A stretch of 21,119 bases of DNA, from positions 1 to 21,119 of IMG/VR virus record IMGVR_UViG_3300027797_000175. The stretch is one strand, 5' to 3'. This document shows, piece by piece, positions 10,411-13,752 of this stretch. The notes below the pieces were generated by a model. It was given only the letters and a program-made list of their open reading frames with translations. It had not been told where the DNA came from and did not search any database. Made by a program: the position numbers and the translations under genes. Position 1 is the first letter of the stretch; every line of letters starts with the position of its first letter. This stretch comes from a virus.

Positions 10411-10425
10411 ATCATAACAGGGTCT
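10411..10425 (-). promoter_or_regulatory. Extended -10 promoter for the leftward replication operon
   Basis: On the minus strand the bases read AGACCCTGTTATGAT: a -10 TATGAT (10416-10411) with TGT directly before it and the ACCCTG element shared with three other promoters. No clear -35 is seen at 17 bases. A start near 10404 would leave an 18-base leader before the ATG at 10386. It is divergent from the promoter at 10453-10464. Confidence 0.6.
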
Positions 10426-10452
10426 GGAAAAGTCTGCACACGTTTTGAAAAA

Positions 10453-10464
10453 CCCTGGTACACT
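10453..10464 (+). promoter_or_regulatory. Extended -10 promoter of the tRNA-like RNA
   Basis: CCCTGGTACACT: -10 TACACT (10459-10464) with TGG before it and the AACCCTG element; a poor -35 TGCACA lies 18 bases upstream. The expected start, 6-7 bases after the -10, coincides with G10471, the first base of the tRNA-like acceptor stem. Confidence 0.55.
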
Positions 10465-10470
10465 GCCACC

Positions 10471-10541
10471 GGGCCCGTGCAGATGGTCTCGCGCTATTGC
10501 GGAGACGTAACGCCAGGTGCAACTCCTGGCCGGGTCCACCA
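10471..10541 (+). ncRNA. 71-nt tRNA-like RNA with encoded CCA, no D-arm
   Basis: GGGCCCG (10471-10477) pairs with CGGGTCC (10531-10537) as a 7-bp acceptor stem whose third pair is G:T, followed by A (discriminator) and CCA (10539-10541). The T-arm is CCAGG (10513-10517), loop TGCAACT, CCTGG (10525-10529), with an extra pair G10512:C10530; T54, C56 and A58 positions are kept but position 55 is G. Between them there is no normal D-arm. Instead GTCTC (10486-10490) pairs with GAGAC (10502-10506), and an inner CGC/GCG closes a TATT loop. A G3:U70 pair with A73 is the alanyl-tRNA synthetase signature, and a missing D stem recalls the tRNA-like end of tmRNA. It may be aminoacylated, or act as a leader for the gene at 10567. 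It could also be a decayed tRNA. Confidence 0.7.
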
Positions 10542-10555
10542 GTATCTAGATACAG
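10540..10555. promoter_or_regulatory. Palindromic site shared with the left noncoding region
   Basis: CAGTATCTAGATACAG contains the perfect 12-bp palindrome GTATCTAGATAC (10542-10553). It begins at the CCA of the tRNA-like RNA and runs into the AGGAGG ribosome binding site of the gene at 10567. Three less perfect copies lie at 25-103. It may be an operator, or in RNA a small hairpin that affects CCA-end processing and ribosome access. Confidence 0.5.
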
Positions 10556-10566
10556 GAGGTAGTTAT

Positions 10567-10815
10567 ATGCAAGTTACTGTAACTAGTAATCTAAGAGAGG
10601 AGCTTGAGAAGACAAGCGATCCTCTCAAGCGCAAGGCATTGAAGGCCGCCATTTACATGAAGATGGAGAAGAGGCTTGAGAAGCTTCTTGGCAAGGCAGC
10701 ACTCAACATGCCGTCGAGCACTGTCTGGGTTGGCAAGGGTGTCCAAATGGTATACGGAAACCACGGTTACAGGCGGGATGCGCGCAAGACCCGGCGCAAC
10801 TTCTCGGTCTGGTAG
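10567..10815 (+). CDS. Small basic hypothetical protein, 82 aa
   Basis: ATG 10567 follows CAGGAGG by 7 bases; the frame is open upstream through the tRNA-like RNA, but that would be implausible as coding. The protein is basic and helical in residues 8-46 (LREELEKTSDPLKRKALKAAIYMKMEKRLEKLL) and has an aromatic, arginine-rich C-terminus (YGNHGYRRDARKTRRNFSVW). This suggests nucleic acid binding. It is directly downstream of the tRNA-like RNA and probably shares its transcript. No family is recognised. Confidence 0.7.
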   Translation: MQVTVTSNLREELEKTSDPLKRKALKAAIYMKMEKRLEKLLGKAALNMPSSTVWVGKGVQMVYGNHGYRRDARKTRRNFSVW

Positions 10816-11689: not shown

Positions 11690-12193
11690 ATGGGGGCGTT
11701 TAAGAATCGTGACATCGATGAAAAGAACGCCCTTCGCGAGGCCGCAAGGGCTCGCGGGGGGCAATATACCGACAGCTTTGAGGGCACGTTCTCAGTCATT
11801 TATTCGGAAGCCCTTGAGCTACTTATCAATCGCCAGCGTAAATATGGCCCAGAGAATATCCGGCAGCAAGGAATCTATGGTGTCATTACTCGGATTGCTG
11901 ACGATAAACTTGCGCGGGTAAAGCAGTCACTAAACGGAACGCTCGAGAACGGTAGGCTTGAACTTGAACCGATTGGGAGCAGGGGTAACACTGGCGAAGG
12001 GGACGATAGCTTTGAGGACGCCCTCCTAGATATTGCCAACTACGCGCTGATCGCCCTGGCCCTCCATCGTGGCGAGTGGGGCAAGCCACTTATTGAAGAC
12101 ATGGAAGACGACTTTGACAAGTTCATTGATGACTGGTCGAAGGAAGACGACTTTGATCTTCCTGATATCCTAAACAATATTGGAGACCTGTAA
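11690..12193 (+). CDS. NMAD1 (DUF1599)/MazG-like all-alpha protein, 167 aa
   Basis: ATG 11690 sits 8 bases after the exonuclease stop with an AGGGGGTAG site. The core FSVIYSEALELLINRQRKYG, GIYGVITRIADDKLARV and SFEDALLDIANYALIALAL (about 34-126) follows the nucleotide-modification-associated domain 1 pattern, related to all-alpha NTP pyrophosphatases: an acidic helix with E..D metal ligands and a DxANYA helix. In phages this domain is linked with modified bases or dNTP pools. After it comes an extremely acidic tail (about 134-167, EDMEDDFDKFIDDWSKEDDF), unusual for the family. It may be a housecleaning pyrophosphatase; I see no base-modification genes nearby. Confidence 0.7.
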   Translation: MGAFKNRDIDEKNALREAARARGGQYTDSFEGTFSVIYSEALELLINRQRKYGPENIRQQGIYGVITRIADDKLARVKQSLNGTLENGRLELEPIGSRGNTGEGDDSFEDALLDIANYALIALALHRGEWGKPLIEDMEDDFDKFIDDWSKEDDFDLPDILNNIGDL

Positions 12194-13077
12194 TGGCAAA
12201 GCTCAAGATTGTTACGCAGACAGATAACATTGAGGCCGGTAAGCCCGGCGTGCAAGACAACTGGATGGATGACTGTGCTTGGGCTACGCTCGCATGTGCC
12301 GGGAATCATTTGACCGGTGGGACATGGAAATCTAAAGACGCAGTTGCGTGGGGTGAGAAGGTCGGGCGCCATGACCGAGATGGTTTGCCTGACCCTACCT
12401 CCCTGGCCCAGTTGGCGAAGGCATCAAAGTACGCTGGCCTCAAGGCACGATATCCGAAGTCTTGGGCAGACGTACTGAAGGCCTTTGCTGACGGAGCTGT
12501 TATCGGCGTCAACGTAGAGCAGGCCAAGAATTATCCCGCCAAGGTATACATGTCGGTCTGGCACCGCAAGCATCAGAAGCGAAAGCCAGGCGCAACGTAC
12601 GGTCATATGGTTTGCTTTGCCAAGCTGGACGATAAGGCTCAGTTTGCAGATCCAACGATGTCTGGCGTAGGCGTAGAGACATACGCTGTGCCGGTAACAC
12701 TAGATCAGTTTAAGCAGATCGCCTCGTCAAAGGGGGACGCGCCACATAAGCGCTGCCTGATCTGGACGTCGATCAAGCCTAGGCCACCGGAAGGGGATAT
12801 CGATGTAGCCCTTACGGTCTTCATGGAGAAGGCAGATCCGACGGTCACCAGCATGAGGATCAGGTCTCTCGAGGAGGCGAAGCGTCTAATCGCTGATCCA
12901 AAGATCCCTCATAAGATTGGCCTGCTACCTCAACCGGTTGACGGCAAGGCTGTCAAGCGGGAGCTACAATTGCTAGTAGACCAGGTGGATGGCACGCCAT
13001 GGGGCGCAGCCAGGCAAATGCTATGGGATCGTATTGACGACCTCAAGCGCAAACTGAGAGGGGATAGAAATGTTTAA
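12193..13077 (+). CDS. C39-like cysteine peptidase/amidase, probable endolysin, 294 aa
   Basis: ATG 12193 overlaps the previous stop (TAATG). The N-terminal domain has a papain/C39-like catalytic layout: Q21 and C28 in VQDNWMDDCAWATLA, H138 in YGHMVCF, and D153 in FADPTM, matching Gln-Cys-His-Asp order and spacing. The C-terminal region (about 205-294, helical and charged, ending DRIDDLKRKLRGDRNV) may target the enzyme to the wall. The next gene is a small holin-like membrane protein, so cleavage of host peptidoglycan at lysis is the likely role. A processing peptidase is the alternative. Confidence 0.7.
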   Translation: MAKLKIVTQTDNIEAGKPGVQDNWMDDCAWATLACAGNHLTGGTWKSKDAVAWGEKVGRHDRDGLPDPTSLAQLAKASKYAGLKARYPKSWADVLKAFADGAVIGVNVEQAKNYPAKVYMSVWHRKHQKRKPGATYGHMVCFAKLDDKAQFADPTMSGVGVETYAVPVTLDQFKQIASSKGDAPHKRCLIWTSIKPRPPEGDIDVALTVFMEKADPTVTSMRIRSLEEAKRLIADPKIPHKIGLLPQPVDGKAVKRELQLLVDQVDGTPWGAARQMLWDRIDDLKRKLRGDRNV

Positions 13078-13298: not shown

Positions 13299-13321
13299 CT
13301 AGTCCAAGCGGTATGGACTAG
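13299..13321. other. 8-bp inverted repeat before the convergent terminator
   Basis: CTAGTCCA (13299-13306) pairs with TGGACTAG (13314-13321) around a 7-base loop. It touches the terminator stem that begins at 13323. In minus-strand RNA the stem is followed by TTGTTACTTACTTT, a weak T-rich stretch, so it might stop the leftward late operon. Confidence 0.45.
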
Positions 13322-13752
13322 GGCCGGGGCCTTCGGGCTCCGGCTTCTTTCTTTTTCAGGACCTTTGCCAGGGTGAAGTCTGGTACCGGTAGGAGCGAGC
13401 AGACCACGTGCGAGAGTGCCTCAGCAACACGCTCTGTCTCCGTATCCCAGGCCTTGTTAAGCAGGTCAAAAGTCTGGGACCCGAGGATACCCTCAAGGGA
13501 ATTAATAAAGCGCTCTAGGCCTGCATCGTGGACGTGCATCAGCTCGTGGCTCAGGATGCGGCGCTGGCTCTCCGGAGTCTCCTTGAAGAAGTCGTTGCTG
13601 ATCCGGATGGTAGCTTCCCACAGGTTCTCGCTTACCTCGACATCGGCCCAGGCATCGTCCGGTGGTAGGTCCTCGCTTACCTTAATGACCCACTGCTTTA
13701 GGTTGAGAAGGTGCAGGTTCTCGTTACAGTATTGTGCAACTTCTCGGCGCAT
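13318..13752 (-). CDS. HExxH zinc metallopeptidase-like protein, 144 aa
   Basis: Last gene of the late operon. SHELMHVHDAG carries H69-E70-x-x-H73, the zincin motif, in a predicted helix, and a following helix TETERVAEALSHVV contains E107 and E111 as possible third zinc ligands. N-terminal strands (WVIKVSEDL, EATIRISND) resemble the small sheet that precedes this helix in minimal zincins. Its stop and the codons for the last few residues (GARRPRP) lie inside the rightward terminator. Lying just past the tail genes, it could be a virion-associated or lysis peptidase; the substrate is unknown. Confidence 0.7.
   Translation of the reverse strand: MRREVAQYCNENLHLLNLKQWVIKVSEDLPPDDAWADVEVSENLWEATIRISNDFFKETPESQRRILSHELMHVHDAGLERFINSLEGILGSQTFDLLNKAWDTETERVAEALSHVVCSLLPVPDFTLAKVLKKKEAGARRPRP
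13323..13356 (+). terminator. Rho-independent terminator of the exonuclease-lysis operon
   Basis: GCCGGGGCC (13323-13331) pairs with GGCTCCGGC (13336-13344) with one G:T wobble and a TTCG tetraloop, followed by TTCTTTCTTTTT. Same design as the terminator at 5901. It overlaps the 3' end of the converging metallopeptidase-like gene. Confidence 0.88.

Follow-up and report, generated by a model that had tools for sequence, protein, structure and literature searches.

A family of D-arm-less phage RNAs resembling the tRNA-like domain of tmRNA: possible decoys in trans-translation

The stretch of DNA analysed here, referred to as the window, is a virus record of 21 kb (21,119 nucleotides) that encodes a DnaB helicase, an SSB-like protein, a Cas4-like nuclease, an exonuclease and head genes. 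Searches with its capsid and exonuclease, made for the host, returned distant matches only. On the plus strand, flanked by the Cas4-like gene and a small basic open reading frame, positions 10471 to 10541 specify a 71-nt RNA that resembles a tRNA or the tRNA-like part of tmRNA and has no D-arm. The open reading frame that follows (10567-10815, plus strand) encodes 82 amino acids of no family, is preceded by the ribosome-binding site AGGAGG (10554-10559) and is probably co-transcribed with the RNA. BLAST searches of the RNA locus and of this open reading frame against 50,697 phage records gave no match.

The RNA begins with the 5' strand of a 7-bp acceptor stem, GGGCCCG (10471-10477), which pairs with CGGGTCC near the 3' end such that G3 lies opposite U70. 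The place of the D-arm is taken by the linker TGCAGATG (10478-10485), whose family consensus nGYRGAYG is kept across families. The central hairpin (10486-10506; GTCTC(g)CGC-TATT-GCG-GAGAC, 3' part GCGGAGAC) consists of five base pairs, a bulged G and three further pairs closed by the loop TATT, and occupies an H2-like position. It is followed by GTAAC and by the T-arm (10512-10530) with the stem GCCAGG/CCTGGC and the loop TGCAACT, which contains G55. The acceptor 3' strand, the discriminator A73 and an encoded CCA complete the molecule (10531-10541). As the T-stem has 6 bp, acceptor and T-stem form a stack of 13 bp as compared to 12 bp in tRNA and tmRNA. The minimum free energy of the fold is -35.8 kcal/mol (z = -3.2), none of 200 dinucleotide shuffles being as stable, and in the folding ensemble the pairing probability was at most 0.04 for any candidate D-stem. 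Folding thus agrees with the original prediction of a D-arm-less RNA with a 7-bp acceptor stem, G3:U70, A73, CCA and a bulged hairpin. The predicted T-arm is present as well, but its stem has 6 bp instead of 5.

A tRNA-model match with a D-arm, which had been named beforehand as evidence against the prediction, was looked for with two programs: ARAGORN reported neither a tRNA nor a tmRNA at the RNA, and an Rfam search of a 201-nt stretch around it gave no tRNA or tmRNA match at E values up to 10. The D-arm and the 7-nt anticodon loop that define the RF00005 cloverleaf are absent, and neither the tag reading frame nor the pseudoknots of RF00023 are found in the 71 nt. Where the tRNA-like domain of tmRNA has the D-loop nUGGnUUCGAC and a 12-bp stack, the window RNA has TGCAGATG and 13 bp. 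All general features of such a domain are nevertheless there, namely the 7-bp acceptor, G3:U70, A73, CCA, the T-arm, the lack of a D-stem and a helix for H2. The predicted plan of a tmRNA end, with an acceptor stem joined to a T-arm and no D-stem, is thereby borne out.

Upstream of the RNA lies the promoter element ACCCTGGTACACT (10452-10464, plus strand), which includes the extended -10 sequence TGGTACACT 7 nt before G1 and is kept in the related contig L006. The sequence ACCCTGKTAYNNT occurs in three exact copies in the window, at 10411 (minus strand), 10452 (plus strand) and 10842 (plus strand), all within one control region. These copies represent a phage promoter type, two of them pointing rightward and one leftward. 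No good -35 sequence was found for the promoter at 10452, and a generic sigma-70 scan of the window omitted it. The proposal that the RNA has a promoter of its own is hence supported by the extended -10, from which transcription would start at or near G1, while the -35 is poor. Immediately 3' of the CCA follows the perfect palindrome GTATCTAGATAC (10542-10553), also kept in L006. Near copies with one or two mismatches are present at 27-38, 73-84 and 90-101 in the AT-rich contig end (0.3 expected); the palindrome and its near copies are possibly sites for a phage DNA-binding protein.

The RNA is present in two contigs whose neighbouring proteins are 94-97% identical to those of the window. It differs there by four changes, of which two are in the linker (positions 8 and 10), one is in the hairpin loop and one turns a hairpin pair from U-A into U-G, such that every change falls in the linker or loop or in a pair that is kept as a wobble; in the intergenic stretch just 5' of the RNA, 9 of 84 positions differ. 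In five further contigs (L008-L012) with an exonuclease 75-81% identical to that of the window, the RNA is absent. When window positions 10567-10650 are compared with L006, about 80 nt of the 10567 reading frame and its leader match exactly; beyond them the sequences diverge, to 68% identity at the protein level. This break in identity suggests that recombination may have occurred near the RNA.

More distant relatives were collected from viral contigs by sequence patterns. A first pattern, composed of the T-loop and the 3' end, matched mostly the 3' ends of permuted tmRNAs, and matches were kept only when both acceptor strands lay within 130 nt. It also yielded RNAs with both acceptor strands in 70-97 nt, nearly all of them with G3:U70. 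The second pattern, AACNNNNGGTKCRANTCCNNNNNNNNTCCACCA, fixes the 13-bp spacing and was found in 74 viral contigs, 69 of which have a 7-bp acceptor partner starting with GG within 52-117 nt (68 identified by script plus L185, a 52-nt RNA under the script's length limit). The third acceptor pair is G:U in every RNA of this pattern that was inspected. When 257 Gb of genome sequence from bacteria and archaea were searched, the same pattern occurred once, with about two occurrences expected by chance. This match, in an archaeal metagenome-assembled genome, lacks the acceptor partner and was dismissed as a chance occurrence. Judging by these counts, the family, which we define by the 13-bp stack, the linker nGYRGAYG and AAC before the T-stem, occurs only in phages among the sequences tested.

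A covariance model (R1) was built from 14 relatives; neither the window RNA nor those of the two nearest contigs were among them. R1 finds the window RNA at full length (model positions 1-85) with 58.6 bits and E = 1.2e-10, and scores the relative in L137 at 65.8 bits; in the same searches real tRNAs reached about 23 bits at most and tRNA-Ala-like genes 26-28 bits. The window RNA is therefore almost certainly a member of a structured RNA family. D-arm-poor tRNA-Ala-like genes with a TGC anticodon and a tmRNA-type T-loop were seen in Mycobacterium phage Rey (L135:2995-3070), in H8-H28 and in L098 and L120, the L120 contig also carrying a full tmRNA. They are unannotated in many cluster relatives. 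The genes of Rey, Myrna, L098 and L120 were set apart as different from the window RNA.

Since partner strands had initially been found by pairing, which biases any count of pairs, the 5' strands were re-chosen by the linker motif alone. Strands picked in this way pair at all 7 acceptor positions in 9 of 9 distinct families, compared to 2.0 after shuffling, and the T-stem of these RNAs forms 6 of 6 pairs in 9 of 9 families, where 1.6 would be expected. When the 14 RNAs, that of the window not included, are aligned, all cells (100%) are paired and 36 of them carry double changes. The covariation score over both stems is 0.575 as opposed to 0.114 for shuffled and at most 0.10 for slid alignments. 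G1:C72, G2:C71, G3:U70 and G7:C66 are constant in all 14; the signature of G3:U70 and A73 is found in 14 of 14 relatives, and CCA is likewise invariant. In group A, which like group B and L053 comprises phages with several genes in common with the window phage, the equivalent of the central hairpin shows compensatory changes among 21 variants (C-G/U-A; G-C/C-G/U-A; G-C/C-G). Otherwise this hairpin is free: its 4-nt loop varies (TATT/TGTT), and L185 (52 nt) and L191 (57 nt) have no hairpin worth naming. The stem structure of the family is under selection, and the stems, whose lack of conservation would have spoken against the prediction, are kept in relatives by compensatory changes. As a separate observation, L031, L038 and L053 have a hairpin directly 5' of the RNA, in a region that covers the final 45 nt ahead of G1 and reaches further upstream. 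The loop of this upstream hairpin is near-constant (GTGGTGTCCTCCCAT) in group A and L053, and its stem covaries (CCCTGCCG/CGGCAGGG, GCTGGCTG/CAGCCAGC).

A third pattern, the tmRNA D-loop UUCGAC, was searched in viral contigs and recovered a second, larger class from more than 120 viral stretches (L204-L319; for example L206:3031-3110 and L259:9154-9235). It comprises 87 distinct sequences of 67-97 nt with a 7-bp acceptor and the D-loop nUUCGAC, thus outnumbering the class of the window, and its three helices covary with a score of 0.82 as opposed to 0.18 after shuffling. Among the RNAs scanned, six of 73-82 nt exceed the cut-off of RF00023 in alignments that span model positions 1-374 with the middle deleted (L206, 74.5 bits; L259, 65; L225, 52.8; L058, 51.2; L052, 50; L023, 48.2). 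Judged by sequence and model matches, the phage RNAs of this class are coding-less tmRNAs. One of them is carried, unannotated, by the isolated phage Stenotrophomonas virus Jojan60 (ON045087.1, 37722-37804, minus strand; L336:588-670), where it scores 61.8 bits and adjoins genes for tRNA-Gln, tRNA-Asn and tRNA-Pro. T-arm similarity was also seen in Pseudomonas phages PA_L9 and SM1, Stenotrophomonas phage Moby, Acinetobacter phage BUCT628, Xanthomonas phage Rb1 and Tunturiibacter phage Tunturi_4. The Rfam scan covered SM1, Moby, BUCT628, Rb1 and Tunturi_4, which have permuted tmRNAs and hence do not count as coding-less. In Tunturi_4 a gene annotated as an RF-1 domain release factor, perhaps ArfB-like (L338:218-565), adjoins the permuted tmRNA, such that two rescue functions are adjacent.

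How the window RNA relates to this class was assessed with R2, a covariance model of the coding-less tmRNAs. With R2 it reaches 26.1 bits, within the range of true tRNAs, the best of which score 27.2 bits, and the link of the window RNA to tmRNA runs only through intermediates. In L115 and L132 the linker measures 10 nt and the stack 12 bp, and both RNAs score far above the tRNA background with both models (45.8 and 44.6 bits with R1, 43.5 and 34 bits with R2). L115 (27.2 bits) and the window-type L158 (21.7 bits) align to RF00023 end to end, under the 47-bit cut-off, and for both of them the tRNA model, which belongs to the same clan, gives the poorer fit. As L115, L132 and L158 bridge the two classes, the window RNA is likely, if not proven, to be a coding-less tmRNA with a shrunken D-loop and a stack extended by one pair; descent from the tRNA-like domain of tmRNA is, in our judgement, probable.

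The position of the RNA differs between related phages. In the window it lies between the Cas4-like gene and the small basic reading frame, in group A directly 5' of a metallopeptidase-like gene, as also in L164, which is distant in other respects, and in L162 (RNA at 12515-12592) embedded in the coding sequence of a homologue of the window gene at 12193-13077. L143, L206, L115 and L132 have it in or beside tRNA arrays, and in L085 no gene follows. The window has its own homologue of the metallopeptidase-like gene, a putative zinc metallopeptidase-like protein with the motif HELMH (13318-13752, minus strand). In L162 and in L029, L034 and L047 of group B, the RNA stands in frame in an Ala/Pro-rich part of the 12193-13077-related gene, an RNA gene nested in coding sequence. 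These differing locations fit an RNA that acts in trans and uses or blocks host factors, and they speak against a leader of a single gene. A role in cis, as a leader by which the mRNA of the 10567 gene is controlled or stabilised, would be in keeping with the promoter, RNA and ribosome-binding site being in line, the CCA lying 25 nt from the start codon, and with the RNA of group A and L053 being likewise close 5' of a ribosome-binding site. Such a leader, however, needs neither CCA nor a charging signature, and the downstream gene is not constant. Control of the 10567 gene, one of the functions suggested originally, is for these reasons very unlikely. That the RNA is a degenerate tRNA-Ala, or what remains of an attachment site, is even harder to sustain. 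The D-arm-poor tRNA-Ala-like genes of mycobacteriophages such as Rey and Myrna do share its T-loop and G3:U70; but the window RNA has no anticodon loop, its 4-nt hairpin loop varies among relatives, no tRNA match was obtained, and compensatory changes indicate selection. Unlike attachment-site copies of tRNAs, the family is not found in the 257 Gb of cellular genomes searched.

Two further explanations assume action in trans. The RNA could serve as a decoy for other tRNA-handling proteins such as AlaRS, EF-Tu, CCA or T-arm enzymes, or for a host defence toxin acting on the acceptor end. All kept features reside in the acceptor/T half, the anticodon half being variable or even absent as in L185 and L191, and members of the family and its kin sit in phage tRNA arrays. 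Moreover, tRNA-Sec has a 13-bp stack and is poorly bound by general EF-Tu; the 13-bp stack of the window RNA resembles it and, together with the altered D-loop, leaves room for such a role. The intermediates, however, point to tmRNA rather than tRNA, and no defence partner was identified; we regard this explanation as fairly unlikely. Alternatively, the RNA could be a minimal working rescue RNA in the manner of the tag-less mitochondrial tmRNAs. It would enter stalled ribosomes with host SmpB, accept the peptide on its alanine and free the ribosome with no degradation tag added, so that phage proteins are spared. Strong selection on CCA, G3:U70 and the T-arm is what charging would demand, and mitochondrial and some plastid tmRNAs without a tag frame are nonetheless thought to be helpful (PMC11915505). 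Release without a stop codon would, on the other hand, require an additional step, for example by peptidyl-tRNA hydrolase or a release factor, and an RNA like that of phage DS6A is reported, at second hand, to be a tmRNA inhibitor. We consider a working rescue function unlikely.

The reading that we prefer, to which we give about an even chance, is that of a tmRNA-like decoy that can be alanylated and acts in trans to interfere with trans-translation; the decoy or translation interference proposed originally thus still offers the best account. From the data presented here, it draws on the fold, the family and its covariation, the restriction to phages and the link to coding-less tmRNAs. An ancestral tmRNA would have lost its tag frame and pseudoknots and kept the tRNA-like domain with a shortened D-loop. 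Transcription of the RNA would begin at G1 or close by, driven by a phage promoter of its own, and its release would take place at the encoded CCA or close to it; host AlaRS would probably alanylate the RNA, given the G3:U70/A73 signature. It could then occupy AlaRS, EF-Tu, SmpB and the A site of stalled ribosomes in trans without offering a resume codon, such that host tmRNA would be inhibited and ribosome rescue and tagging blunted during infection. No SmpB scored over the cut-off in the 34 phage records tested, and the target would therefore be that of the host. The altered D-loop, which lacks UUCGAC, and the 13-bp stack may change binding of SmpB or EF-Tu. More tentatively, and with rather less confidence, we propose that unrelated phages have repeatedly stripped tmRNA to its tRNA-like domain as an inhibitor of ribosome rescue and that the subclass of the window, with its short D-loop and 13-bp stack, might be a second generation tuned to AlaRS and the ribosome/SmpB and escaping normal use of EF-Tu.

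One phage coding-less tmRNA, that of DS6A, and tag-less organellar forms are already known. The inhibition of tmRNA by a DS6A-like RNA reportedly goes back to original work by Mao et al. in 2009. New within the literature searched are the number and diversity of phage coding-less tmRNA-like RNAs and the subclass defined by nGYRGAYG and the 13-bp stack. Trans-translation is near-universal in bacteria and an antibiotic target, and in the literature found, phage action on it is described for DS6A only. Coding-less tmRNA-like RNAs are here seen in far more than a hundred phage contigs, the isolated Jojan60 among them, with strong covariation and an invariant alanine signature. Whether phages target ribosome rescue or turn it to another use, and for what reason, thereby becomes directly testable. 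The phage RNAs also provide natural minimal tRNA-like domains for studying recognition by AlaRS, SmpB and EF-Tu.

When set beside known systems, the window RNA shares with tRNA-Ala the G3:U70 pair, A73, CCA and a T-arm, but has neither D-arm nor anticodon arm, and its T-stem is longer by one pair with G55 in the T-loop. Its likeness to tmRNA (ssrA, RF00023) extends further, to the 7-bp acceptor, G3:U70, A73, CCA, the T-arm, the lack of a D-stem and a helix placed between D-loop and T-arm. It differs from tmRNA in the lack of the mRNA-like region, tag and pseudoknots, in a shorter D-loop, in the 6-bp T-stem and in giving no Rfam match. The tag-less organellar tmRNAs (RF02544; about 65 nt in plastids of Mallomonadaceae, PMC11915505) have no tag frame either, but are of separate derivation and are thought to aid rescue rather than to inhibit it. 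The ssrA of mycobacteriophage DS6A has been described as 'TLD only', with little beyond the tRNA-like domain, and a similar RNA is said in these second-hand accounts to inhibit tmRNA strongly in E. coli, perhaps via titration of SmpB (Hudson et al., 2014, PMC4131195; PMC11915505). Compared with DS6A by description only, the window RNA stands apart by its short D-linker nGYRGAYG, its 13-bp stack and its not being recognised by the tmRNA model; the two are alike in being phage-borne and in consisting of a tRNA-like domain from which the tag frame is absent.
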